A stretch of 64,000 bases of DNA. Source: Bacteroidia bacterium (lineage in GTDB: Bacteria; Bacteroidota; Bacteroidia; Chitinophagales; UBA2359). Position 1 is the first letter of the stretch, and each line of letters begins with the position of its first letter. The stretch covers positions 1-64,000 of the forward strand of contig JAUHXA010000010.1 in NCBI GenBank assembly GCA_030427245.1, given 5' to 3'. Shown here in pieces: positions 2,192 to 63,420 of this stretch. The position numbers were made by a program, and so were the translations under genes. Under the pieces are notes generated by a model. That model ran no database searches, was not told the DNA's origin, and was given only the letters and a program-made list of their open reading frames with translations.

Positions 2192-5100
2192 ATGATTATC
2201 AAAGACATTTCCCAATTCCGCACCAACTGGAAAAACCAACAAGGCTATGAAATGAACACTTGGGACGAACATTTCATCGGTAGCACACACGGAGAGACCA
2301 ACGGTTTCTACAAAATGGTCAACGGCATCGTCAACAACATCAAAGCCGACCTCAAACCCAAACTCCAAAACGCACAAGACACCCAGGCGATTTACGAGTT
2401 TCTGCAAAACGCCGCCGACAGTCACTCCACCGAATGTGCGGTCATTTACGACGAAGATTACTTTATGGTAGTCAACAACGGCAAACCCTTCAGTTTGGAT
2501 GACATCAAAGCCATTCTCAACTCTTTTCAAGGCACAAAAGCCGACAAAACCAAAGCCGAAAACTGCCACAAAATCGGGCGTTATGGTATCGGCTTCAAAT
2601 TGGCGTACCGACTCACGGGCAAGTCCGACGGCGTGGACGAACTATTTGAAAAAATGGCGGGACCTATCCTATTCAGTTGGCACAACCAAAATCAATTCAA
2701 CGACTTATACAGTCACCAAGCAGCAAACGAACTGCAATACAACAAGGACTTCAACACCCCCGCAGCCGCACCGTGGTTGATGAAAATCGTCCTCGCCTGT
2801 TTCCCAAGTGCGCCCAACGAAACGGTCAAAAATTTGGGATATGAAGACAAAGTAGTGTTTCCCAAAGAAGAATTGGGCGACTTAGTTGGATTTCTGCACA
2901 AACACAAAGACCAAATCGAAGCCCTCGACCTACACAAAGGTTCGCTCTTTTTCCTCAAATTTGGAGAACGCAAACACGAAAAACTCAAAAATTCGCTCGA
3001 AAACATCAAATCGGGCATCGGCTACTCTATGAACACCCTCAAAACCCTCAACAAAGTCGTCCTACAAGACGACATCGTAGAGGAATTGGAGATTGACTAT
3101 GAGGAATTTACCATCCAACCCAATACCCCTGAATTCAAACAAATTGACCCCGAATTTCCATTTTGTCCCATTCGCATGGTTTTTGGCTACCAAACCGAAA
3201 CACGACAAGCCAAAAAATTGAAGGAAGCCCCCAACCTCTACCAGTTTTTCCCGATGCGAAACGAGCGACACAATTTGGCATTTTTTGTCCATTCCACTTC
3301 TTTCGCCAAAGTCACCGACCGCACCCGTTTGGATGATTTGGGAGAAGCCAATTTTGAAACCTTCAAATACTTGATAGCTGCCCTTCAAAAAAATCTTACT
3401 GCTCACAAATCCAAGAACCTCAAACGTTTTGCAGACATCTTTAAGGTCATTTTGTTATCGGATAGGTCGGACAACGGCACGCTCATCAACGAATATTTGT
3501 ACGAACCTTTGCTCAACTATATCCGCTTCAACATCCCGACCAACAAAGGCAATTTCTACCCCAAAGACATCGTAGTTGTCAAAAATACCCGATTGCCTGT
3601 CGAACCGATGGCGCTCGGAATCGGAAAGGAATGGTTTTATTGGGCAGACCCAAGCACCGATAAAGCTGTCACCAACGAAGCCATAAAGGTCAAAAAACTA
3701 AATTTGACGGCATGGGGTTTGAAGGATTTGTTATTGGAGGGAAATGTGGCATTGATTAACAACTGGATTGCACAATTGTCGAGCGAAGACTACGATACCT
3801 TTGTAGCAGAATTGAAGGAAATCGAATTTGACAAAGCCTTTGCAGATAAGTTCCACCAAATCAAGTGTTTCAAATTCACTGATAGTCAAATCCACAACTC
3901 CTTTTATGCCATTGATGACTTCAAAGACAATGAAGATGTGCTGCTCGTCAATGATACAATTGCACCTACCAAAGACCTCATGCGAGAGTTGGGATATTCG
4001 GTTTTGGAGTTTGACCTCAGCGATTACAACGCCATTCTCAAAGGTTTAGAAGGACAAGAATACCTTCACAATCAACGCCTACTGTTTGAAAAAATCGTGC
4101 AAAGAACGGCAGACAACCAATTGACACACGAACAACGCAAAACCTTATTTGACTTTTTAAGCCATTTGAAGGGAGTCAAAAAAGAGCAATTGCGGGAAGT
4201 TGCTTTGTTTAGCGACAAAAATGGAGTCGTGCGCCCATTGAAGTCCTTGCTGCCCAAAGGAGTAGCCAGCACTTCTTGGCTCAAAAGCTATGAAATGCAC
4301 GAGCAAGAATTTGATGAATCCTTGACGCACTTTCTCGCCAACGAAGAGAGCATTTACACCGATTTTATTGCAGCTTATTGGGAACAATTGATTGAAAACA
4401 AAGCCATTCAATCAAATATTGTAGATTTTTACCAAACCGTACAAGACTACTACAAGGTGGGTAAAAGTCGTGCTTCAATCGCCAAGTTACCTTACATTTA
4501 CATCAATAAAAAACAAGGTTTTGCAGCAGCCGATGAAGTGTTTTTCCACAAAGCCTTTTTGGAAGCCGACAACTACGATGACCTGCAAAGCGCACTTCAA
4601 ATGGTCGGCAACTTCCAAACGCCTCACCCCGATGTGTTGCCGTTTTTAAACGATGCCCCTTTCCGAACCGCCCCCGTTAATAGCCGTTCTTCGTGGAAAA
4701 AAGAGGTAGTTCATATTTTTGCACAATCGGCTACGGCAGAACTCAATCCCAACGAAAAACTGGGTTTGTTTCAGTTGTTATTGAAGGTCGGAGTGCCGCA
4801 AAAACAGATGGAAGAAATCACCTTGTTTACCAACAATCAAGGCGAACACAAACCCCTGAATACCCTCTTAGCATCTGATACAGAGGTAGAAGAATGGCTC
4901 GAAAGCTACAAAATCCATGTAGAAGAGGAGGATGAAGTGCTGCAAAAATTTCTACTTCCCGCAGCCGAAATCTACGCCCAAATCATTTTCCCGAATTGGA
5001 GCGAACTCACTGAACATCCCAAAGTTTTGGCAGACATTCCTGCTTTTTATCAATCCGTTCAAACGCACTACGAAAACAGCCGAAGCAATAGAGCCTTGAC

Positions 5101-7861
5101 GCATTTGAACTATGTTTTTGCAGATGAGAAACAAGGCTTTTTAGAACGCAGAGCCATCTTTTTCCACAAAACCTTACAGCAAAATGAGGACTATGCAGCA
5201 TTGGAAAACGCTTTGCAGAAATTGACCGAATTGGCAACTCCACAAGCCGAAGTATTGCCGTTTTTGAACGATGCGCCCTTCAAAACGAGCGAAAACCGAT
5301 TGCAGCAAGCCATCAAACCCAATCCTGTCTTGTTATCCGAAAGCGAATTGAAGGCATTATTGGAGTTTGTGAAAGCACAAAAAATGGGCTTTTTCAGCTT
5401 CTTATACATGGAAGAAAGCGAGGAAAAAGGCATGTATTTTGTGGGCAAAAAAGGCAGTTTTGTGCAGTGTTTTGCAGGCGACAAACGCTCCAAACTCTAC
5501 CAAACCGCCACCGCCCAACTTCCCGAACGCTACAAATTTTTGCCGCCCAAATTTTACAATCCCGATGCCAACAACAAGGGGCTATTGGAAGGCAAACAAC
5601 TCTACAATGAATTGATTAAGAGTGTGGATGCAGAAGCATTGTCTGCAATTGTTGCCGAAAGTGGCGACACCAAAATACAAGCCCAATTCCTCAAACGCTT
5701 GCCCGAATTGACCCTTAAGGCGGGGCAGGCTTACGACAAAAGCAGTGCGGAGTGCAATACCTTGCAGCTTTTTAGAAACAAAGAAGTGGATGCGGTGGAT
5801 TTGCGTAAAAAAATCACTCTGGAGGATGCGGAGGGCAATACCTACAATTTGGCGGAGGTGTGTTATCCCGATTCGCTGAGCTTCAAAGTTGAACAATTGG
5901 GGCAGTTCAAATTGTCGCTTTCGCAGGTCCTGCCGAGGTTTGCGCCCGTTTTTGCTTTGATGGAACAATTGACCGAGCAGTTCCCCAATTCGGAATCTGC
6001 TTTGCTCCGAAAAATGGTCTTCAATGCGGGTGAAGAATTGCCGCAGAATGTGATTTTGGGCGAGCTTCGCAAGGACTATCGAACCCTCGAAAATGCCTCA
6101 CAACTGGCATTTGCGGTCTTGACCAATCGAGCTAACAACATCAATGTTTCTCGAAACTTCAAGGTCAAAACTCGTGGCGAACAAACGCCTTTCTTGTACG
6201 AACATCCCGCTTTTTACTTGACGCAACATACTTTCCTTCAAGACAGTGCGGTGTTGGCGGAAGACTATTCTGACATTGTTGATTTGTTGAAATTGGACGA
6301 CGAAAAACGCCCTGCTTTTGCCTTCAATGGACAACATTTGTTCATCGAGCCTTTCTTGTGGAAAAACACTTTTTACCTTTCTTCTCTGCAAAAAACGACA
6401 GGCGAAGACCTTCAAAATCAACGCAAAACGCTCATAGAGTATGTCTATCAAAAATGGGTAGCCAATCCGACAGATAGCATTGATTTGCAAGACTTTGAAA
6501 CTGTTTTTGGCTTCGATTCAGTGGCGTGTGTCCATCCGCAAACGTATGCTTTGGAAATTGAAACGCTTCCAGAATGGGTGCTGCAATGGGCAAACGAAAA
6601 CGAGCAACGCATTGCGTTTTTGGCTGCAATGGGTGTGAATACAGCCGATTCTGCACTAGTGAATTTCCGTCAATTCCTTCAATCAGGAGAAGGCGACATC
6701 AGCCGCAAAGACCTCAACAGCTTCAACAATTTGGAGCGCAATTTCCACCTACAAACCCTCGAATGGGCAGCCCAAAAAGATTTGGTTTTTGAAGGAGATG
6801 CCGACAATACGCACTGGCTGCGAATCCTTTACAATACGGTTGAAGGTTTTGAAGCCGATACGCCACTGCCTTATGTGGTGGGATTGAAAGAGGAAAATTT
6901 TGCTTACAAGCTGCAAAGTTTTGAAGGGAAAACGCTGTACGCTTTGCAGAAGTACAAGCTGGATTTGCTGCAAGAAAAATACGGGATTGGTTTGGCAGAT
7001 ATTTTTGAGCAAATGCAAGCGGCAGAACGCTGTTTTGTGGATTGGGACATCAAAAATTTGGACTTGACAACGACCAAGGTGACAGAGGAATTGGACTGGG
7101 AACAGTTGCAGGCGGAGAGCGAAGAATGGGCGGTGAATTATTACCGTGAATGGAAACAGGATGTACCTTTCCAAATCTTTTTGTTCGATGGAGAAATGCC
7201 ACATGAGGTGCAATATCTCGACACAACGATGCAGCATTTTGCGAGTGGAAATGCAGTTTTGCATGAGAATGAAATATTTGTAAATCGCAACGCTGCCAAT
7301 ATCGAAGAAGAACTTTTGGGTATCTCCAAAACCACAACGGGCTTGACCCAACAACACCTACTCGAACTTCTACGCCTCAAAAACGAGGTGTCGCTGCAAA
7401 ATCTTTCGGAGGATTTGGTGCATACGCCTATCCAAAGAGTCATTCAACAAACGACTGCCCCCGAATGGTCGGCTGCTTACAAGGCTTTGGTGCAACATCT
7501 GAGCAGTGAGGAAAATGCGGATTTGTACGCTATTGAAGGAATGGATTTGGATGAAACGGACAATATTTTGACGCATATTTCTAAGGACAGTGAACCTTTA
7601 GTAATTGTGTTGAAGAGTATTTTGCGCCCCAATTTATCGCTGACTTTGGGGGAATTGAGGGTCTTACAAACGGCTGATTTTCAGAGTGAGTTGTTTGTTT
7701 TTGATGGGGTGAGTTTGGAGGAGGTTGTTTTATCTTCTGCGCTTCGTGGTAGTGGTAATTTGAGGGTTCAATTGGAGTTGAGTGGATTGGGGGAAGCGGA
7801 ATTGGGGAGTTTGATGGAGAGGGTTGTTTTGAGAGAGGAAGAGGTTTTGGTGGAGCGATAA
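2192..7861 (+). CDS. Giant HSP90/sacsin-type (GHKL) ATPase-domain protein
   Basis: This 1889-residue protein opens with a GHKL ATP-binding domain of the HSP90/sacsin type. The N-box is YEFLQNAADS (residues 68-77, E69 and N73), the G1 box is VVNNGKPF (93-100) and the G2 loop is IGRYGIGF (128-135). The remaining 1700 residues are not recognisable by eye. They contain an internal duplication: a stretch with KQGF, FFHK and VLPFLNDAPF recurs about 206 residues later (around 765-830 and 971-1036). There is no signal peptide or membrane segment, so it is cytoplasmic. Large sacsin-like ATPases of this kind are common in prokaryotic defence islands. Base composition is far less AT-rich than in the two genes that follow, suggesting separate acquisition. 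A TAGGTTTG box at 2109-2116 may be its promoter. Target and partners are unknown. Confidence 0.75.
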   Translation: MIIKDISQFRTNWKNQQGYEMNTWDEHFIGSTHGETNGFYKMVNGIVNNIKADLKPKLQNAQDTQAIYEFLQNAADSHSTECAVIYDEDYFMVVNNGKPFSLDDIKAILNSFQGTKADKTKAENCHKIGRYGIGFKLAYRLTGKSDGVDELFEKMAGPILFSWHNQNQFNDLYSHQAANELQYNKDFNTPAAAPWLMKIVLACFPSAPNETVKNLGYEDKVVFPKEELGDLVGFLHKHKDQIEALDLHKGSLFFLKFGERKHEKLKNSLENIKSGIGYSMNTLKTLNKVVLQDDIVEELEIDYEEFTIQPNTPEFKQIDPEFPFCPIRMVFGYQTETRQAKKLKEAPNLYQFFPMRNERHNLAFFVHSTSFAKVTDRTRLDDLGEANFETFKYLIAALQKNLTAHKSKNLKRFADIFKVILLSDRSDNGTLINEYLYEPLLNYIRFNIPTNKGNFYPKDIVVVKNTRLPVEPMALGIGKEWFYWADPSTDKAVTNEAIKVKKLNLTAWGLKDLLLEGNVALINNWIAQLSSEDYDTFVAELKEIEFDKAFADKFHQIKCFKFTDSQIHNSFYAIDDFKDNEDVLLVNDTIAPTKDLMRELGYSVLEFDLSDYNAILKGLEGQEYLHNQRLLFEKIVQRTADNQLTHEQRKTLFDFLSHLKGVKKEQLREVALFSDKNGVVRPLKSLLPKGVASTSWLKSYEMHEQEFDESLTHFLANEESIYTDFIAAYWEQLIENKAIQSNIVDFYQTVQDYYKVGKSRASIAKLPYIYINKKQGFAAADEVFFHKAFLEADNYDDLQSALQMVGNFQTPHPDVLPFLNDAPFRTAPVNSRSSWKKEVVHIFAQSATAELNPNEKLGLFQLLLKVGVPQKQMEEITLFTNNQGEHKPLNTLLASDTEVEEWLESYKIHVEEEDEVLQKFLLPAAEIYAQIIFPNWSELTEHPKVLADIPAFYQSVQTHYENSRSNRALTHLNYVFADEKQGFLERRAIFFHKTLQQNEDYAALENALQKLTELATPQAEVLPFLNDAPFKTSENRLQQAIKPNPVLLSESELKALLEFVKAQKMGFFSFLYMEESEEKGMYFVGKKGSFVQCFAGDKRSKLYQTATAQLPERYKFLPPKFYNPDANNKGLLEGKQLYNELIKSVDAEALSAIVAESGDTKIQAQFLKRLPELTLKAGQAYDKSSAECNTLQLFRNKEVDAVDLRKKITLEDAEGNTYNLAEVCYPDSLSFKVEQLGQFKLSLSQVLPRFAPVFALMEQLTEQFPNSESALLRKMVFNAGEELPQNVILGELRKDYRTLENASQLAFAVLTNRANNINVSRNFKVKTRGEQTPFLYEHPAFYLTQHTFLQDSAVLAEDYSDIVDLLKLDDEKRPAFAFNGQHLFIEPFLWKNTFYLSSLQKTTGEDLQNQRKTLIEYVYQKWVANPTDSIDLQDFETVFGFDSVACVHPQTYALEIETLPEWVLQWANENEQRIAFLAAMGVNTADSALVNFRQFLQSGEGDISRKDLNSFNNLERNFHLQTLEWAAQKDLVFEGDADNTHWLRILYNTVEGFEADTPLPYVVGLKEENFAYKLQSFEGKTLYALQKYKLDLLQEKYGIGLADIFEQMQAAERCFVDWDIKNLDLTTTKVTEELDWEQLQAESEEWAVNYYREWKQDVPFQIFLFDGEMPHEVQYLDTTMQHFASGNAVLHENEIFVNRNAANIEEELLGISKTTTGLTQQHLLELLRLKNEVSLQNLSEDLVHTPIQRVIQQTTAPEWSAAYKALVQHLSSEENADLYAIEGMDLDETDNILTHISKDSEPLVIVLKSILRPNLSLTLGELRVLQTADFQSELFVFDGVSLEEVVLSSALRGSGNLRVQLELSGLGEAELGSLMERVVLREEEVLVER

Positions 7862-7935: not shown

Positions 7936-7943
7936 TATATTTG
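7936..7943 (+). promoter_or_regulatory. -7 box upstream of the nuclease-caspase unit
   Basis: TATATTTG matches TAnnTTTG and lies 22 bases before the start codon at 7965. No clear TTTG lies at the usual -33 distance. The box suggests the nuclease-caspase pair is transcribed separately from the HSP90-like gene upstream. Confidence 0.45.
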
Positions 7944-7964: not shown

Positions 7965-8915
7965 ATGAAAAAATCACAACAGTATTTTAATACTTTCAAA
8001 AAATCATATAAACTCAAAGATTGGCTTGCCTATTTTTCTGCTTTAACTTGGGAAAAATATATGAAGGTTAAGAATTATCCTACGATTATAAATATTGGTG
8101 AAGTATGCATTAATCAACTATTGGTAGAAACTATGCTAGATGCTCTACTAGAGTTCCCTCTACCTATACGTTTCTTTCATTCTATTGACGAAACTGCAAA
8201 TGGAAATGATTTTGAAATATTATTACCCATTAATAAATCTCAATTCATCCTTTTTCCCTGCCAAGCAAAACGAATCTTTCCACAAAAAGATAAGTATGAA
8301 TCTATTTCTCATATGGTAAAACATAAAAAGACAAGAAAAGAATATGAACAAATAACCTACCTTTTAAATTATGCAGACCAAGTCAAAGGTTTTCCTATTT
8401 ACTTTTTCTACAATTATACTCCTGATAATTTTCACCCTAAAAAACATCAAGGTTATTCCAAGTTAGACAAAGAATTATTTGGATGCACTATGATAAGTGC
8501 TAAATATATATTTAAAGAATACTTTAACAAAAGTAAAAAACTAAGTACATTTTCTTTCAATGATATACATCCACCTGCTCAACCCATTGTAAAACTAGCA
8601 GATTTATACAAAAAGGATTTTGTAAGTAATGATAAAATTAAGACTATTTTTGGTGAAACAGATGTTCAAGATGATGAATTAGAAGGTTACGATTTAAATA
8701 CATTGGTTACCATGAATGTCATCAAAAATAAAAAATGGGTTGAGATTCATTCTAGAGATAAAAAAAGACGTGTCGAAGTCGAAACAAATTTTTTAAAAAA
8801 TTTACTTAATGTCGAAAAAGGAGAATATACATTCAATCCTAAATATAGAATTATGTTTACTCCTGAAATTATTGACCCTAAAAAACGATATAATAGCTTT
8901 GAAGACATAAACTAA
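7965..8915 (+). CDS. Predicted PD-(D/E)XK-like nuclease (QAK motif) paired with a caspase
   Basis: This 316-residue cytoplasmic protein has an N-terminal pattern seen in restriction-endonuclease folds: IGE (E46) at the start of a helix, then GNDFEI (D82, E84) and, one strand later, FPCQAKRI (Q100, K102). E...D...QxK is the classic active-site spacing. The arrangement recalls the DUF6615-type family, where a DWEW strand is followed by QAK; that link is tentative. The C-terminal half has charged, mixed alpha/beta sequence that I do not recognise. The gene is very AT-rich and ends 12 bases before the caspase gene, so the two are probably co-transcribed. A reasonable guess is an effector whose activity is controlled by the caspase, or a sensor arm of the same device. 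Neither is shown by the sequence. Confidence 0.55.
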   Translation: MKKSQQYFNTFKKSYKLKDWLAYFSALTWEKYMKVKNYPTIINIGEVCINQLLVETMLDALLEFPLPIRFFHSIDETANGNDFEILLPINKSQFILFPCQAKRIFPQKDKYESISHMVKHKKTRKEYEQITYLLNYADQVKGFPIYFFYNYTPDNFHPKKHQGYSKLDKELFGCTMISAKYIFKEYFNKSKKLSTFSFNDIHPPAQPIVKLADLYKKDFVSNDKIKTIFGETDVQDDELEGYDLNTLVTMNVIKNKKWVEIHSRDKKRRVEVETNFLKNLLNVEKGEYTFNPKYRIMFTPEIIDPKKRYNSFEDIN

Positions 8916-8927
8916 AACCATATTCAA

Positions 8928-11516
8928 ATGCCTACTCTTTCTTCAAATAAAACCAGAGCCCGTAAAGGAACAAACTATATCTTAGCTATTGCTATTGATG
9001 AATATAAAAAAGATGATTTTTTGCAATTAGATAATGCAAAAAACGATGCAGAAGCCTTTATAAAAATATTGACTACAAAATACAGGTTTGAAGATAACGA
9101 GATTCAGACAAAAAGGCTTTATGATGCTAAGGCGACTAGAGGTGAAATTCTTCGCACATTTAGAAGTTATAATCGACTAAATGAAAATGATTCATTAATA
9201 CTATTTTATAGTGGTCATGCACATAAAATTGAAGAAACAGAAGAAGGATATATTATTCCCGTCGATGTAAAAAAGAACAATATAGATGCTAACAGAATAA
9301 TGTATTCTGAAATCACTCAAATACTCAAAAAAATAATTACGCCAAAGCACATTATATTGTTTCTAAATTGTTGCTATGCAGGCAACTTCTTTACAAAAAC
9401 TCGTAGTATAATTCCAACATATAAGGATAAAAGATTTTTGCAAAAATCTAGATGGGCTTTCGCTGCTGGGGAAAAGGATCAAGAAGTATTGGACGAAAGT
9501 AATAATGATTCTAATAAAAGTCCTTTTGTTGAGTATATTGTTAAATTTTTAGAACATAATTATAATGATAGTATTAGCATTACAGAATTAATCTCTAATG
9601 TTACAGACAGAGTAGCGGATAATTATATATCTCAAATTCCATTGGGTAGAAGTATTCAAGACGCAGGTGATGAAGGAGGAGAATTTAGTTTTCAATTAAA
9701 AGACAATGAAGAAGATGTATGGAAAGCTGCATTTGAGAAAGACACAGTAGAAAGTTTATCAGAAGCAATTAAACGGTTCCCAGAGAGCCAATTAAATAGG
9801 CTAAAAGCTGAAAAACGGTTAGAGTTACTTCTAAAAGAAAGAGGGGAATGGATTGAATTCTTAAAAATAGCGAAATGTAAACTTAGCAATATAGTTTCAA
9901 ATCACGGTAAAACATCATCCTATTATGATTTAGCGAAAAAAAATCTAAACTTATATAATGATAATTATAAAAAACTCACCTACAAAGAACGAGCACAAAC
10001 CAAATGGAAAGATATTCAAGATAGTGTTAGGGTAGAAGATAAAATAAGCCATTGCAAAGAATTTATATACGAATTTAAAAAAAGCGAATATTATCCTTAT
10101 GTAAAACAACTTAAAATACGTTTAGAAAATGAAGAAGGGCGAAGAAAGGCTTGGATAGATTGTCAAAATGAAGCAAAAAAAATCCATACGCCTAAAAAAC
10201 GTTTACATGTTTTTAAAGCTTTCTTATTAGATTATTCTGCTGGATATGAAACTAAAGCAGCAGAGATAGCAGTAGAAGATATTATGTTTTGTATTCAGGC
10301 TTTTGAGGAATATAATAAAACAAGAAATTATACCCTGCTGCAAAAATACAAAGATAAATATGGGAATAAAGCACAACATTATAGAATTGTAAATGCAAAG
10401 TTAACTCAAATAGACAATGAAAGAAAGTTAGAAAGTGAAAAAGAAAAATTTGTTAGTATAGCAGATTCAAAGTCTGTAACCAAGTTATTAAACTTTATAA
10501 ATGATGAAGAAACTAGTAGTGAATTAAGAAAGGAAGCTATAGATTTTTTAGAAAGCCTAAAAATTGAAATTCAACATAAATTTTCCAAAGCAGTTAATCA
10601 AGAAGGAGTTAAAATGATTTACGATTTTATCAACACTTATCCTGATTGCTCAGAAGTTGTAGAGGCAAAAAAACTCTTTGAAGAGAGGCAAGAACAGGCT
10701 CTTAAAAACGCAATAATAGAAGTAAGGAATAGCAAGAAACTTGACGCTTTAGAAAATCATATTTCAGAATTTGAGACTTATAAAGGTTTTGATGTCAAAT
10801 TGGCAAGAAGAAAAAAAGATGATTTCCAAAAAGATATTTTGGCTTATGCAAAAGCTATGGAAACTAAAGATTTTAAAAGTTATATTGAGAATAATGAATA
10901 CGGTTTATTTGTAGAAGATGCTAAACGAGAAATAGATAAAATAGAAAATTCTACACAAGAGGCAATTCTTCGTAAAAAATGCTTTGAACATCACAAACTT
11001 TCTGATTTAAAGAGATATGTACGTCAATTTAAGGAAACTGAATACTATGATGAAATTAATGCCCTTTTAATAAAAGAAGAAACAACTATAAACGCCAAAG
11101 CTTTATTTACGCAAATAAAAGAGTTAATGGTAAAAGATGAGAGGGATTTTGCTCTTGATAAAATATCTATGTATGAAAGACATTTTCCCGAAGAAGAAGA
11201 TTATCCTAAACTTGCAAAATTTGAAGCGCAAATAGAATTATATAATAGGGAAGACGAAGCATTTGAAGATATTTTAAAACATCCAAATGATGAAGATAGA
11301 TGTTACAGTTTTTTAGCTACGTCTGAATTTCAGCGAAAAGACCAAGATGTTAAAAACATTTTGAATAAAATAATGAAACACAACTCATCTTCACTCAATA
11401 ATACTGTTGAAAATGCTAATCAAAAGCAAAATAAATTCTTTGGAGATGTTAAGATAACAGATATACTCATTGTACTGCTTTTGATTATATTGATTGCTTT
11501 GTTTCTTTTCAAATAG
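8928..11516 (+). CDS. Caspase-like (peptidase C14) protease with C-terminal membrane anchor
   Basis: The first 240 residues form a caspase domain: NYILAIAIDEY, a DNAKNDAEAF helix, then the catalytic histidine in YSGHAH (H97) and the catalytic cysteine in LNCCYAG (C149). This is the bacterial metacaspase/orthocaspase pattern, which usually cuts after Arg or Lys. Residues 260-800 are highly charged and helical, with repeated short helical units like WKDIQDSVRVEDKISHCKEF and FKETEYY, probably a scaffold or sensor. A single membrane segment (ITDILIVLLLIILIALFLF) closes the protein with almost no tail. With no signal peptide, the protease should face the cytoplasm on a tail anchor. It follows the predicted nuclease by 12 bases. 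Bacterial caspases in such pairs are known to drive cell death in phage defence; that role here is inference. Confidence 0.8.
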   Translation: MPTLSSNKTRARKGTNYILAIAIDEYKKDDFLQLDNAKNDAEAFIKILTTKYRFEDNEIQTKRLYDAKATRGEILRTFRSYNRLNENDSLILFYSGHAHKIEETEEGYIIPVDVKKNNIDANRIMYSEITQILKKIITPKHIILFLNCCYAGNFFTKTRSIIPTYKDKRFLQKSRWAFAAGEKDQEVLDESNNDSNKSPFVEYIVKFLEHNYNDSISITELISNVTDRVADNYISQIPLGRSIQDAGDEGGEFSFQLKDNEEDVWKAAFEKDTVESLSEAIKRFPESQLNRLKAEKRLELLLKERGEWIEFLKIAKCKLSNIVSNHGKTSSYYDLAKKNLNLYNDNYKKLTYKERAQTKWKDIQDSVRVEDKISHCKEFIYEFKKSEYYPYVKQLKIRLENEEGRRKAWIDCQNEAKKIHTPKKRLHVFKAFLLDYSAGYETKAAEIAVEDIMFCIQAFEEYNKTRNYTLLQKYKDKYGNKAQHYRIVNAKLTQIDNERKLESEKEKFVSIADSKSVTKLLNFINDEETSSELRKEAIDFLESLKIEIQHKFSKAVNQEGVKMIYDFINTYPDCSEVVEAKKLFEERQEQALKNAIIEVRNSKKLDALENHISEFETYKGFDVKLARRKKDDFQKDILAYAKAMETKDFKSYIENNEYGLFVEDAKREIDKIENSTQEAILRKKCFEHHKLSDLKRYVRQFKETEYYDEINALLIKEETTINAKALFTQIKELMVKDERDFALDKISMYERHFPEEEDYPKLAKFEAQIELYNREDEAFEDILKHPNDEDRCYSFLATSEFQRKDQDVKNILNKIMKHNSSSLNNTVENANQKQNKFFGDVKITDILIVLLLIILIALFLFK

Positions 11517-11674: not shown

Positions 11675-11932
11675 ATGAGATTAGACATCACCGTAGCCAA
11701 TCATGAAGTTGACGAACAACTTTGGCAGAAAATCAAATCCTTCATTGAAGCAGAAGAAGGGAGTTTCAAAATATCCATTGAAATTGAAAAAGAGGAAGCG
11801 GAAGATGAAACGACTTTTTTGTTGAAAAACAAGAAAAATAGAGAGCGATTATTAGAAGCCATTGAAGATGTAAAACAAGGTAAGAATTTGACTACTTTTA
11901 CTTCATTGGAAGAATTGAAAAAAAGCCTATAA
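11675..11932 (+). CDS. Antitoxin of the YoeB-type toxin
   Basis: This 85-residue acidic protein directly precedes the toxin gene. The C-terminal segment with NRERLLEAIEDVKQGKN and ELKKSL resembles the toxin-binding tail of YefM/Phd-family antitoxins. The N-terminal part (LDITVANHEVDEQLWQKIKSF) is not a typical YefM fold, so it may belong to another antitoxin group found in Bacteroidota. It is expected to bind and block the toxin and to repress its own operon. The pair is identified mainly by its neighbour. Confidence 0.7.
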   Translation: MRLDITVANHEVDEQLWQKIKSFIEAEEGSFKISIEIEKEEAEDETTFLLKNKKNRERLLEAIEDVKQGKNLTTFTSLEELKKSL

Positions 11933-11938
11933 TTGTAT

Positions 11939-12205
11939 ATGTATCAACTTCAACTGCATGAAAGGGCAACAGAGGACATGATATTTTGGGCGAAAAACGA
12001 TGCCAAAATGTTAGCCAAAATTTTTCGATTGATTGAAAGTGCATTGAAAACTCCTTTCAATGGCATAGGCAAACCCGAAGCCTTGAAATATGAATTGACA
12101 GGATATTGGTCAAGAAGAATCAATCAAGAACATCGCCTCGTATATCAAGTTACAGATGCCCACGTCATTGTTGTTCAATGTCGTGGGCATTATGACGATA
12201 AGTAG
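11939..12205 (+). CDS. yoeB: YoeB-family mRNA-interferase toxin
   Basis: This 88-residue protein follows the YoeB/Txe pattern closely: a WAKNDAKMLAKIFRLIESALKTPF helix region, GKPEALK, GYWSRRI, EHRLVYQV, and a C-terminal CRGHY. The residues matching the E. coli YoeB catalytic set are present (Glu in GKPE, Arg in EHR, His in GHY), so the toxin should be active. YoeB enzymes cut mRNA in the ribosomal A site. The ATG at 11939 is preferred over a TTG at 11933 and lies 6 bases after the antitoxin stop, as is usual for this operon type. Confidence 0.88.
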   Translation: MYQLQLHERATEDMIFWAKNDAKMLAKIFRLIESALKTPFNGIGKPEALKYELTGYWSRRINQEHRLVYQVTDAHVIVVQCRGHYDDK

Positions 12206-58620: not shown

Positions 58621-59469
58621 ATGAAAACGTTATTTGTCTCTTTTGTGGTGTTATTCATTGGATTACCTTCCATTAATTTATACGGACAGGATGCCAATGC
58701 TGAAAAACTATATAAAAAAGGCGTAGAAGCTTATGAAAAAGGTGATTATGAACAAGCAATGGCTTACTTTGTAGATGCTATTGAAGCATCAGAGGCTTTT
58801 GTTGAATCTACCTTTAGTTATCTGGGGAAATCCTATTATGCTCTGCAAAAGCAAGATTTGGGCTTATCAGAGGAAGCTGAATTGGAGGAAGAAACAACGC
58901 CAGAAAAAGAAGCGGAAGCTATTTCAGAGAAAACAGATGGAACGCCACCTGAGACTGATATAGAAGAGGATGAGGAAGCGGATGATTCTACTGTATCAAA
59001 CTTAGTCGCTGCTAACTCTGCTTATCAAGGAGGAGTAGCAGCTTATAAACAGTCTGATTTTGTAGGAGCTATTCAGTATTTTACGATTGTGATTGAAGCA
59101 GGAGAAGGGAATATCGAAAATGCCTTCAATTATCGGGGTATGAGTTACCACGCTTTGGAAGATTACAGTGCGGCGATTGCAGACTATGACAGCACTATTG
59201 CATTGGATGCGAAGAGTCATATTGCCCATCACAATCGAGGTATTGCCAAGCAGAATTTAAAGCTTTACAATGAAGCCTTGCTAGATTTCAATAAGACAAT
59301 TCGCATCAAGCCTTCTTATGCAAGGGCTTATGAAAGTAGAGCTGTTTTGTATTACAAAATGAGAGATTTAGAAAAGGCCTTGAAGGATTGTGATAAAATA
59401 TTGCAGATGGATGCAAACAATGCAAATGCACTGCGATTGAAGGAAAAGCTCGAAGAAGAAAGCAAATAA
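58621..59469 (+). CDS. Exported TPR-repeat protein
   Basis: The 282-residue protein has a signal peptide ending YGQ and about five TPR units: EKLYKKGVEAYEKGDYEQAMAYF, SAYQGGVAAYKQSDFVGAIQYF, NYRGMSYHALEDYSAAIADYD, and two more to the end. An acidic low-complexity stretch (residues 85-120) splits the first unit from the rest. TPRs bind partner proteins. It lies 26 bases before the first caspase gene, so co-transcription is likely. Confidence 0.85.
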   Translation: MKTLFVSFVVLFIGLPSINLYGQDANAEKLYKKGVEAYEKGDYEQAMAYFVDAIEASEAFVESTFSYLGKSYYALQKQDLGLSEEAELEEETTPEKEAEAISEKTDGTPPETDIEEDEEADDSTVSNLVAANSAYQGGVAAYKQSDFVGAIQYFTIVIEAGEGNIENAFNYRGMSYHALEDYSAAIADYDSTIALDAKSHIAHHNRGIAKQNLKLYNEALLDFNKTIRIKPSYARAYESRAVLYYKMRDLEKALKDCDKILQMDANNANALRLKEKLEEESK

Positions 59470-59495: not shown

Positions 59496-61382
59496 ATGAG
59501 AAACTTACTCGCCACGCTATTTCTACTATTTTCGCTGACTCTGTTGGTGAATGCCCAAAATTTTTACCAGCAAGGCGCAAGGGCTTACAACAATGAGGAC
59601 TATAAAGATGCCATCGAATTGTTTACCAAGTCAATTGGTTCTGACAAAGAAAGAGGATTCATTGGTTTGGCATACAATTATCGAGGAAAATCTTATCAAA
59701 TATTGGGTAAAAACAATAAGGCCATTGAAGATTACAATAAAGCCATTGAAGAAAACCCCAACAATGCGACTGCCTATTTCCACCGAGCACAATTGCGGGA
59801 CTCTTATGTAAACGACAAAGAAGGCGCATTGGTGGATTATACAATAGCCATAAAACTGGATGCAAAATATGAAGAAGCCTATTTCTCACGTGCTTCATTG
59901 AAGTTTGAGATGGGAAACCTAAAAGGTGCTTTGGCAGACTACAATACCATATTGAAGTACTTCAATCCCAAAGATGAAATTGTAAAGGGCTATGTTCAAC
60001 AGATTGAAAAGAAAACAGGTGCGCTTGCTTCAAACCAAAACAATTCCTCCAGTTCTTCTTCAACCAATACCGATAGGACAAAGACAGAAAGAACTTCTTG
60101 GGTAGATACTGACAAAATTAAAAATAGTATAAATACTACCTCCACCACAAGCAGCCATACCAATACCAATACTAATTCAAGCCAAACCACAAGTACATCT
60201 GAACCAGACATAAAAGAAAATGCCAAGCTAAATGTTTTTTGGCTAAGCCCCAATATTGATGAAGTACCAGAGAAAGGACTCTATGCGGAGGATGAAATGC
60301 TAACCATCAAGCTCAAAACCTATTCTTCTCACCCACTTGCGGGCAATCATTTTACAATATATATCAACGGAGCACCTGCAAAATCTTACAAATTCGATGA
60401 GATGCAATTGTCAGGTGGCCCTCACTATTTTACCTACACCAACACCGTTAAATTGGAGCCCGAAAACAACCGAATAGAGGTAAGAGTAACGAATGGTGCA
60501 GGAACGCAGACTTCAAGAGAACTAAAGGTGATGTACAATCCTCGAAAACCTGATTTGCATGTCCTTTCTATTGGTCCTAAAGCAACCAATCTAAAATATA
60601 CCAAAAAAGATGCAGAGAACTTTGCAGATATGTTTATTGGACAAGCAGGACCAGAAGAAAATAAAATTTTTGCGAATGTGTATGTAAACAAATTAACAGG
60701 CGAAGAGGCAACAACCAATGAAATTAGGGGAATGTTGGAAGAATATTTGTATCACCAAAATGTTCAACCCAAAGATATGATGTTGTTGTTTGTAGCATCA
60801 CATGGATTCATCGACAATGGAGATTTTAGGATTCAAGGAAGCGACTACAATCCAGTTCGTCGTCGTTCTACTTCTGTTTCTTTCAAAGACGATATTACCG
60901 CACATTTGAGCAATATCAACTGCAAAAAACTAGTGTTTATTGATGCTTGTCATAGCGGAGGTGCAAGAGGGGATGTCATGGACATCAATGATGCAATTAA
61001 GCAAGTCAGCCAAAAACAAAACATCAGCTTAACCTTGACTTCAAGCAGCCAAAACCAGCTTTCGTATGAAGATGATCGCTGGAACAATGGCGCATTTACC
61101 AAAGCATTGGTGGATGGAATGCAACGAGGAAAAGCAGACACAAATGGAGATAAGGTAGTAACTGTCAAAGAACTATCCGATTATGTAGCCGCAAGCGTGA
61201 AGGAAATGGTGCACACACTCAAAAACGAACTCCAAGAGCCTGCATTTATCAATGATGGTAGCAAAGGAGTTGCAGACAACTTACCTATTTATGTAATAGG
61301 AAATTTTGCAAAAGTACAAGGAAATCAAGCTACTACAATAAAAGAGGTAGAAATAAAATCGGAAGCTATTAAAAATCATTAA
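59496..61382 (+). CDS. Exported TPR-caspase (peptidase C14), copy 1
   Basis: The 628-residue protein has a signal peptide ending NAQ (about residue 21) and three to four TPRs (residues 22-165, YNRGKSYQILGKNNKAIEDYNKAIE). A Ser/Thr/Asn-rich linker and a beta-sandwich-like domain (residues 240-350, ELKVMYNPRKPDLH at its end) follow, then a caspase domain with H436 in VASHGF and C485 in IDACHSGG. The catalytic pair is intact. As an envelope caspase it may act on cell-wall or surface targets, or in differentiation or death. It has a very similar neighbour 28 bases downstream, so the pair arose by duplication. Confidence 0.88.
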   Translation: MRNLLATLFLLFSLTLLVNAQNFYQQGARAYNNEDYKDAIELFTKSIGSDKERGFIGLAYNYRGKSYQILGKNNKAIEDYNKAIEENPNNATAYFHRAQLRDSYVNDKEGALVDYTIAIKLDAKYEEAYFSRASLKFEMGNLKGALADYNTILKYFNPKDEIVKGYVQQIEKKTGALASNQNNSSSSSSTNTDRTKTERTSWVDTDKIKNSINTTSTTSSHTNTNTNSSQTTSTSEPDIKENAKLNVFWLSPNIDEVPEKGLYAEDEMLTIKLKTYSSHPLAGNHFTIYINGAPAKSYKFDEMQLSGGPHYFTYTNTVKLEPENNRIEVRVTNGAGTQTSRELKVMYNPRKPDLHVLSIGPKATNLKYTKKDAENFADMFIGQAGPEENKIFANVYVNKLTGEEATTNEIRGMLEEYLYHQNVQPKDMMLLFVASHGFIDNGDFRIQGSDYNPVRRRSTSVSFKDDITAHLSNINCKKLVFIDACHSGGARGDVMDINDAIKQVSQKQNISLTLTSSSQNQLSYEDDRWNNGAFTKALVDGMQRGKADTNGDKVVTVKELSDYVAASVKEMVHTLKNELQEPAFINDGSKGVADNLPIYVIGNFAKVQGNQATTIKEVEIKSEAIKNH

Positions 61383-61410: not shown

Positions 61411-63420
61411 ATGAAGAATTGGATGATAACCATAGCGGTATTACTGACGAGCTTAGCAGCCCATGCCCAAAATACTTATCAAGAGGCAATGGATGCTTAT
61501 GAAAATAAAGAATATCACTTGGCGATTGGTCTATTTACGAAAGTAATTGATGCCAATGAAAAATCAGTTGACTTAGCCCACAATTTTAGAGGAGAAGCCT
61601 ATCAAATCTTAAAGGACAACGACAATGCATTTGAAGATTATAATAAAGCCATCGAACTCAATCCAGAATATGCGATGGCTTATCAAAATAGAGGGACATT
61701 GTATCAGTCTTATTGGTTTAAATATGATAAAGCAATGGACGACTACAATAAAGCCATCAAACTCAATCCAGAATTTGCATTGGCTTACTTCAATCGGGCA
61801 TCTCTGAAATGGTATATGGGAGACCTAAAAGGAGCTTTGGCAGATTACAACAAAATGTTGTCAGACTTCAATGCGGACGACCCAGAAGTAATAGGATATG
61901 TAGCACGTATTCGAACAGAATTGGGTATGGTAGAACCTATGGTCAATAATACCACTTCTAAAGAGCCAAACGAGGAACAGCCCATCGTCAATAATACCAC
62001 TTCAAAAGAACCAACCGATGAACAACCTGTCGTCAATAATACCACTTCAAAAGAGCCAACCGATGAACAACCCGTCGTCAATAATACCACTTCAAAAGAA
62101 CCAACCGATGAACAACCTGTCGTCAATAATACCACTTCAAAAGAGCCAACCGAGGAACAGCCTGTCGTCAATAATACCACTACAAAAGAGCCAACAGAAG
62201 AACAACCTGTCGTCAATAATACCACTACAAAAGAGCCAACAGAAGAACAACCTGTCGTCAATAATACCACTACAAAAGAGCCAACAGAAGAACAACCTGT
62301 CGTCAATAATACCACTACAAAAGAACCAACGGATAACTCCAGTTTGAATATTTATTGGATAAATCCAGATCCTTCCGAATTGCCTGAAGGTACATTGGTT
62401 GTAGAGAACGAACTTCTGACCATTAAGCTAAAAACTAGTTCTACTCAAGAACTTATTGCCGACAATTTTACAGTTTCCATAAATGGCTTACCTGCCAATT
62501 ACCGGTCAGATGCTCCTAAAATAATCGCTCATGCAGGTGTTGTCACCTATACCAATAAAGTCAAACTGGAGCCAGAAACCAATATTATAAAAGTCCGAAT
62601 CAGTAATTCAACAGGCTCAGTATATTCCAATGAACTGAAAGTTATATATTCCCAGCGAAAACCCGATTTACATGTGCTTTCTATTGGCCCAAAAACAATC
62701 AACTTGAAATATACCCAAAAAGATGCTGAAGATTTTGCGGATATATTTAGTGGGCAAGAAGGTGAAGGGAATAATAAAATATTTGCTAATGTATTTCCCA
62801 AAAAATTAACAGGAGAAAAAGCGACCACCAATGAAATTCGAGGAGTAATTGAAGAATATTTGTCTCAACGAGAAGTCAAACCTTCAGATATGGTCGTGTT
62901 GTTTGTCTCTTCTCACGGTTTTATGGAAAAGGATGATTTCAGGATTCACGGAAGCGATTACAACCCACTTCGTCGTCTTTCTACCTCAGTTTCCTTCAAG
63001 GATGATATCACTGCACATTTATCCTCCTTAAATTGCAAAAAAATTGTGTTTATTGATGCCTGTCATAGTGGAGGAGCAAGAGGAGATGTATTGAATATCA
63101 ACGAAGCCATCAAGCAAGTCAGTCAAAAACAAAACATCAGTCTCACCTTTACCTCAAGCAGCCAAAATCAACTTTCGTATGAAGACGAGACTTGGGACAA
63201 TGGAGCCTTTACCAAAGCCTTAATTGACGGGATGAAATATGGAAAAGCGGATGTAAATGAAGATAAAATTGTAACCGTAGAGGAACTGTCCAACTATGTC
63301 ACCACCAGTGTTAGAACGATGGTTCGTGAACTTAAAAATGAACTTCAAGAGCCTTCTTTCATCAATGATGACAACAAAGGCGTTGAACGCAGTTTACCGA
63401 TTTATGTGATTGAAGAATAA
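61411..63420 (+). CDS. Exported TPR-caspase (peptidase C14), copy 2
   Basis: The 669-residue protein has the same design as copy 1: signal peptide ending HAQ, three TPRs, a linker, a beta domain and a caspase with H502 in SSHGF and C551 in IDACHSGG. It differs by a linker of nine 15-residue repeats (VVNNTTSKEPTDEQP and close variants, residues about 177-311). Protein identity in the caspase domain is high between the two copies. No gene lies between this and the end of the cluster; the next gene faces it. Confidence 0.88.
   Translation: MKNWMITIAVLLTSLAAHAQNTYQEAMDAYENKEYHLAIGLFTKVIDANEKSVDLAHNFRGEAYQILKDNDNAFEDYNKAIELNPEYAMAYQNRGTLYQSYWFKYDKAMDDYNKAIKLNPEFALAYFNRASLKWYMGDLKGALADYNKMLSDFNADDPEVIGYVARIRTELGMVEPMVNNTTSKEPNEEQPIVNNTTSKEPTDEQPVVNNTTSKEPTDEQPVVNNTTSKEPTDEQPVVNNTTSKEPTEEQPVVNNTTTKEPTEEQPVVNNTTTKEPTEEQPVVNNTTTKEPTEEQPVVNNTTTKEPTDNSSLNIYWINPDPSELPEGTLVVENELLTIKLKTSSTQELIADNFTVSINGLPANYRSDAPKIIAHAGVVTYTNKVKLEPETNIIKVRISNSTGSVYSNELKVIYSQRKPDLHVLSIGPKTINLKYTQKDAEDFADIFSGQEGEGNNKIFANVFPKKLTGEKATTNEIRGVIEEYLSQREVKPSDMVVLFVSSHGFMEKDDFRIHGSDYNPLRRLSTSVSFKDDITAHLSSLNCKKIVFIDACHSGGARGDVLNINEAIKQVSQKQNISLTFTSSSQNQLSYEDETWDNGAFTKALIDGMKYGKADVNEDKIVTVEELSNYVTTSVRTMVRELKNELQEPSFINDDNKGVERSLPIYVIEE
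61939..62343 (+). repeat. Nine tandem 45-bp repeats in the second TPR-caspase gene
   Basis: The units are exactly 45 bases and encode VNNTT-KEPT-EQP. Units 6-9 carry TTT in place of TTS and are the most alike, so they are the newest. Copy number may vary between strains. Confidence 0.95.

Follow-up and report, generated by a model that had tools for sequence, protein, structure and literature searches.

Can two adjacent genes of a bacterial defence island be read as a single anti-phage device, in which a caspase would control a nuclease? The question is raised by two open reading frames, ORF1 and ORF2, of a Bacteroidia bacterium of the order Chitinophagales (assembly GCA_030427245.1, contig JAUHXA010000010.1, positions 1 to 64,000, this whole stretch of 64,000 nucleotides being the window hereafter), which a first-pass annotation had described as a QAK-motif nuclease and a tail-anchored caspase forming a possible death or antiviral device. 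The analysis reported here indicates that ORF1 is very probably a nuclease, belonging to a family whose members recur inside unrelated defence operons, and that a role in defence is likely, while cooperation with the neighbouring caspase is proposed more tentatively. The two genes are as follows:

7965..8915, + strand: ORF1, 316 amino acids, QAK-type (E-D-QAK) PD-(D/E)XK-like predicted nuclease related to DUF6615
8928..11516, + strand: ORF2, 862 amino acids, with an N-terminal caspase, a helical region and a C-terminal membrane helix

Regarding ORF1, the residues singled out at the outset (E46, D82, Q100, A101 and K102, together with H97 and C149 in ORF2) were located exactly where they had been placed, those of ORF1 corresponding to the following codons:

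8100..8102, + strand: E46, invariant
8208..8210, + strand: D82, invariant, within a GxD motif
8262..8270, + strand: Q100-A101-K102, invariant

The succession E...D...QxK is the motif order of PD-(D/E)XK nucleases, and ORF1 carries E46, D82 and Q100xK102 in the order E...D...(D/E/Q)xK. In alignment A3, E46, E76, G80, D82, Q100, A101, K102, Q129 and L133 are present in all 15 rows (ORF1 included), with the other rows sharing 13-27% identity with ORF1; because the same residues are invariant throughout such a divergent family alignment, the motif goes beyond chance. Annotated DUF6615 members of this alignment share the E, GxD, QAK and Q...L pattern of ORF1, and the Pfam profile DUF6615 (PF20320) reaches ORF1 at 6.5e-5 with 23.0 bits, just missing the gathering cut-off of 23.8. 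Below the cut-off yet sharing the conserved residues, ORF1 is therefore a divergent DUF6615 relative. Alignment A3 omits two near copies (L011 and L023) and a fragment of 142 amino acids (L024); the later-found L064 and L065 are in alignment A4, whose 10 rows take in two later-found members, from genomes G713 and G678, and where E46, G80, D82, QAK, Q129 and L133 occur in every row and E76 in at least nine (ORF1 numbering). Among the relatives found, the closest is encoded on a Spirosoma linguale plasmid and aligns with 91% of ORF1 at 27.7% identity (3e-22). With a hydropathy maximum of 1.26 (19-residue window), ORF1 displays no transmembrane (TM) helix by this measure and would be a soluble protein.

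Mrr-like type IV restriction nucleases resemble ORF1 in their QAKR motif and PD-(D/E)XK-type motif order, but the family profile aligned by hhalign with one E. coli Mrr sequence at a P of only 0.041, a weak result in which QAK was aligned on QAK; P was 0.63 with one DUF4365 protein and 0.53 with an unrelated caspase protein used as negative control, and the partners in this test were single sequences, which makes it weak. The AlphaFold2 model of ORF1, built from three sequences of which two are nearly identical, has a mean predicted local distance difference test (pLDDT) score of 32.9; at this low confidence, the order of its first elements would fit the alpha-beta-beta-beta-alpha-beta core of the PD-(D/E)XK superfamily. 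No usable hit to a solved structure came from sequence searches with ORF1, ORF2 or the family profile.

The genomic company of the QAK family was surveyed at 19 loci outside the window, namely 13 plasmid records, the Spirosoma plasmid, two Flavobacterium contigs and the genomes G225, G713 and G678. Only 13 of 24 plasmid records were used, the other 11 being copies or near copies by their listing, and the flanks covered mostly extend about 3.5 to 10 kb per side (less than 0.5 kb on one side for L024 and L025). The QAK gene lies inside a defence operon at six of the 19 loci. On the Spirosoma plasmid, it stands beside genes for a UvrD-PDDEXK helicase, an N4/N6 methylase, a type III-like R subunit, ZorA and ZorB; in the two Flavobacterium loci, which are nearly identical, it adjoins the Septu genes PtuA/PtuB (defence scan on L010). 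In Vibrio gigantis, its 5' end overlaps the 3' end of a gene for a type I R subunit. In G713, it follows a DrmMI-like methylase gene by 39 bases at a DISARM-like locus also containing a DrmD/DpdE-like helicase, and in G678 it is embedded in a type I restriction-modification (R-M) operon, where HsdS ends 7 bases before it and a PDC-S06 ATPase gene begins 34 bases after it. The remaining 13 loci are either without a clear partner by annotation or have partners seen by annotation only; among them, on a Priestia plasmid, the DUF6615 gene is followed 573 bases downstream by a gene for an ImmA/IrrE-family peptidase, the sole peptidase gene seen near the family. As a separate observation, the DUF6615 gene of two Rhodococcus plasmids (L022 and L023) is convergent with a gene set including a 'RAMP superfamily CRISPR-associated protein'.

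Because the motif is invariant and relatives reside inside R-M, Septu and DISARM-like operons, ORF1 can be regarded as a PD-(D/E)XK-type nuclease, which upholds its first description as a predicted nuclease; DNA would presumably be the target of its activity. The family as a whole is best explained as an extra cutting subunit that unrelated defence systems would have adopted. Even if ORF1 and ORF2 do not act jointly, the QAK/DUF6615-related family would thus stand as a modular nuclease found in type I R-M, type III R-M/Zorya-type, Septu and DISARM-like loci.

This family is rare. ORF1 alone found no match in 197 other genomes of relatives and three matches at E <= 0.01 in 394 other genomes of the phylum (G505, G235 and G321). 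Two of these were dropped as relatives, both being absent from the profile searches: the match in G235 spans 72 residues with an internal stop, and that in G321 covers 101 residues within a 593-amino-acid frame. Profiles A1 and A3 matched the same two of the 394 other phylum genomes, and profile A3 two of 226 genomes of the class. ORF1 had no phage matches and none in viral contigs, including with alignment A1; a scan of genome contigs with one narrow pattern, which is not a census, returned two nearly identical loci. No paper on DUF6615 was found in the literature searched.

The second gene encodes a caspase with the following features:

8967..9686, + strand: caspase domain, about amino acids 14-253
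9216..9218, + strand: H97 codon, catalytic dyad
9366..9374, + strand: N147-C148-C149 codons, C149 belonging to the dyad
9687..11447, + strand: predicted all-helical region, from a low-confidence model
11448..11513, + strand: C-terminal membrane helix (tail anchor), by hydropathy

The PADLOC profile 'caspase' matches ORF2 at 8.5e-8, and NCBIfam NF047832 at 3.6e-15. Of the 43 caspase domains aligned (that of ORF2 among them), 42 conserve H97 and 42 conserve C149, and the dyad of ORF2 is intact; residues 843-861 form a hydrophobic terminal helix (Kyte-Doolittle 3.2). The early description of a caspase with an intact H97/C149 pair and a C-terminal membrane anchor was thus borne out by alignment and hydropathy. 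Such a terminal helix is found in just two of the 46 proteins compared, the other being a protein of 580 amino acids from genome G169 (L080), which shares 31% identity with ORF2 over about 270 amino acids and has in common with it the first helical repeat (to about residue 285). Caspase-SUMF1 proteins of Haliscomenobacter (L013) are similarly related, the identity of both kinds to ORF2 being about 30-31% over the caspase domain and first helical repeat; they differ from ORF2 by other C-terminal parts, and no nuclease was seen among the neighbours examined. AlphaFold2 modelled ORF2 alone with low confidence (mean pLDDT 41.6). In plasmids, ORF2 has matches in 19 records, all confined to the caspase part and none extending over 80% of the protein, and no match was found in viral contigs. 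Caspases themselves are common, with matches at E <= 1e-6 at 102 places in 50 of 228 genomes, including the window's own.

The neighbours of the G169 caspase carry EAD11, VWA and FHA domains, as in conflict systems, whose vocabulary these domains form according to PMC7159879. Besides the tail-anchored caspase, positions 3936-11810 of L080 encode another caspase-related protein, which bears EAD11, and a VWA/FHA protein, possibly a conflict system of its own in the same order as the window's genome. G169 and G181 both belong to family f17.

What ties the two genes together is their adjacency and composition. As originally noted, they are 12 bases apart (spacer 8916-8927) and AT-rich, with overall G+C contents (GC) of 0.275 for ORF1 and 0.291 for ORF2; both are uninterrupted reading frames on the same strand. 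At third codon positions (GC3), the values are 0.202 and 0.192, against 0.515 for the upstream gene and 0.326 and 0.363 for two downstream genes, and among 14 measured genes only two on the opposite strand, at 286-1900, are equally AT-rich. In view of this shared and very low GC3 relative to the flanks, the pair resembles a single acquired piece. Two upstream features have to be considered alongside:

2192..7861, + strand: Tiamat (TmtA) neighbour gene, GHKL/sacsin-like ATPase domain, GC3 0.515
7936..7943, + strand: candidate Bacteroidota -7 box TATATTTG, consensus TAnnTTTG

The upstream protein of 1889 amino acids is Tiamat (TmtA) by PADLOC (E = 0), the best TmtA profile, 1552 long, matching it in two stretches; no Tiamat relative was found in the plasmid collection at 1e-10. 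Its gene ends 103 bases upstream of the pair on the same strand, and with its GC3 of 0.515 it is therefore probably a separate unit from ORF1-ORF2. As for the box that had been credited to the pair, TATATTTG is indeed present, ending 21 bases ahead of the ORF1 start codon, but the positions 17-23 bases ahead of it hold no TTG that could serve as -33 partner, and the + strand of the window contains 45 copies of TAnnTTTG, the Bacteroidota -7 consensus; the case for an own promoter, resting on a lone -7 box, is weak. Sigma-70-type and terminator-like sites were about as numerous as expected by chance. The setting in a defence island is sound, since the Tiamat gene is accompanied by a DUF4365 gene and its partner (286-1900, - strand), which match the candidate defence pair PDC-M02A/B.

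We tentatively favour, at somewhat under an even chance for the reading as a whole, ORF1-ORF2 as a small anti-phage cassette acquired horizontally, in which the caspase would control the nuclease. ORF1, a member of the QAK family, would be soluble and cut DNA as a PD-(D/E)XK-type nuclease, and the ORF2 caspase would be held at the membrane by its tail anchor, its long helical region most likely binding an infection signal or a partner. Upon infection, the caspase would be switched on and would release or activate the nuclease, which it would either cleave or free from an inhibitor; the activated nuclease would then cut phage and/or host DNA. In this scheme we infer the trigger, the side of the membrane and whatever functional connection joins the caspase to the nuclease. 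The functional pairing taken by itself, for which adjacency and composition are the basis, is possible rather than probable. A narrower version is unlikely: the QAK nuclease would stay inactive until acted on by a tail-anchored caspase whose specificity is unusual (Asn for Asp), and the caspase-nuclease design of the published canu loci would have been reinvented independently.

Several results weigh against this favoured reading. A caspase profile built from ORF2 relatives matched none of the 19 other QAK loci; conversely, the QAK profile matched none of 35 stretches around caspases (L067-L101), which cover 39 of the 102 caspase places plus two from another search, nor any of five further stretches around the G713 and G225 caspases. 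When whole QAK-bearing genomes were considered (n = 4), caspases were present elsewhere in G713 and G225, and no ORF2 match was obtained in G678 and G505. The pairing is unique within the material examined, and the co-occurrence by which the first-pass annotation had proposed to judge it did not appear; of the death or antiviral device, the defence-island setting stands and a recurring two-gene system is not supported so far. Besides, Pfam Peptidase_C14, which matches ORF2 relatives well, is not listed for ORF2 at E <= 1, for which reason ORF2 is taken as a divergent caspase. ORF2 also has N147 where 41 of the 43 aligned domains have Asp, and A98 where 41 have Gly. In metacaspases, the Asp two residues before the catalytic Cys lines the S1 pocket; with N147 in its place, substrate choice may therefore differ, and these two residues may alter the activity or specificity of ORF2. 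A search of 148 other genomes with residues 251-862 found nothing at E <= 0.001, and evolutionary support for nuclease-caspase coupling is therefore absent. The structure models of ORF1 and ORF2 are unusable at the mean pLDDT values given above, and no gating insertion was seen between the ORF1 motifs, their spacings of 36/18/27 falling within the family range of 32-38/17-19/21-38. As the QAK family is rare in both phylum and class, a pairing seen only once argues no more than weakly against function, and with a small sample of a rare family the absent co-occurrence weakens the system idea without killing it.

The two genes could also be mere neighbours in an island that stacks defence genes, a substantial possibility on the doubtful side of even. 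ORF1 would then be a defence nuclease working by itself (type IV-like) or with help from Tiamat, and ORF2 an unconnected caspase of a type frequent in the order. This view fits with the several DUF6615-type plasmid genes next to which annotation shows no evident operon partner (e.g. L017, L018, L022 and L023), with the six defence operons where the QAK gene keeps company with ATPases, helicases, methylases and R-M subunits and no caspase, with a GHKL ATPase gene ending 103 bases upstream of ORF1 on the same strand, and with the frequency of caspases, two further ones being encoded in the window. Against it stand the 12-base gap and the near-identical and distinctive GC3 of ORF1 and ORF2, which the Tiamat gene does not share, as well as the Priestia locus with its peptidase gene downstream. 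A reversal of roles is quite improbable: ORF1 would be a sensor or switch whose binding or nicking of phage DNA unleashes the caspase, which would then cleave cell proteins at the membrane. A tail anchor and a long helical region would suit such a signalling protease, but the QAK family adjoins DNA-handling machines at six other loci, which better fits a cutting subunit. It is very improbable that ORF1 is not a nuclease and has kept the QAK motif for another reason, e.g. nucleic-acid binding only. This would accord with the lack of a confident structure for ORF1 and of a useful match to a solved one, and with an alignment to E. coli Mrr that is only weak (P 0.041, two other single proteins having given 0.63 and 0.53); set against this, E, D and QxK are invariant in 15 of 15 rows and in PD-(D/E)XK order, and QAK falls on the QAK of Mrr.

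Returning to the favoured cassette, the closest known design is canu, the caspase-nuclease anti-phage loci described in PMC12799240. Changing either active site abolishes T4 protection in E. coli, and a caspase switching on a nuclease therefore has experimental precedent; partner proteases also activate nucleases in Hachiman and AVAST, and the authors suggest that further protease-activated enzymes may exist (PMC12799240). The view that the pair matched no named system thus holds only in part: caspase-activated nucleases do bear a name, but the canu nuclease has a different fold. In both cases, a caspase-family protease gene adjoins a nuclease gene in defence islands, and activation of the nuclease by a caspase complex, tested in canu, is only proposed for ORF1-ORF2. 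The canu nuclease is of metallo-beta-lactamase type whereas ORF1 is QAK/PD-(D/E)XK-like, with no metallo-beta-lactamase match in Pfam, PADLOC, NCBIfam or PHROGs at E <= 1. It is encoded downstream of the caspase gene, whereas ORF1 lies upstream of ORF2, and it possesses gating insertions, whereas the motif spacings of ORF1 are ordinary, a gate being possible elsewhere in the protein. KaeCanABC has a third gene where the present unit has two, and KaeCanA has an immunoglobulin (Ig)-like fold; ORF2 gave no Pfam Ig match, its model being too poor for a comparison of folds. A caspase-controlled nuclease is therefore known in kind, and ORF1-ORF2 is plausibly a new version of it. If the pair does cooperate, caspase control of nucleases would have arisen with at least two unrelated nuclease folds, and the design would therefore be a general principle of bacterial immunity.

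The EACC1-caspase two-gene membrane system (NF047832), as described in PMC7159879, is also comparable, in that a small 5' gene precedes a protein with an N-terminal caspase and a variable C-terminal part, and in being membrane-associated, as ORF2 is by prediction. It differs by the single TM helix of EACC1, ORF1 having none by hydropathy and no Pfam EACC1 match at E <= 1, and ORF2 stays below the NF047832 cut-off (56 of 140 bits). Regarding Tiamat, the TmtA profile matches only the neighbour at 2192-7861, from which the pair is separate by composition.

Elsewhere in the window, two small genes at 11675-12205 resemble, by eye, a RelB/RelE-type pair, the first being without a Pfam match at 0.001. 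A second caspase cluster consists of tandem genes at 59496-61382 and 61411-63420, encoding tetratricopeptide (TPR) repeats with a C-terminal caspase (Peptidase_C14 2.6e-16 and 7.2e-17, respectively) and preceded by a TPR gene at 58621-59469.

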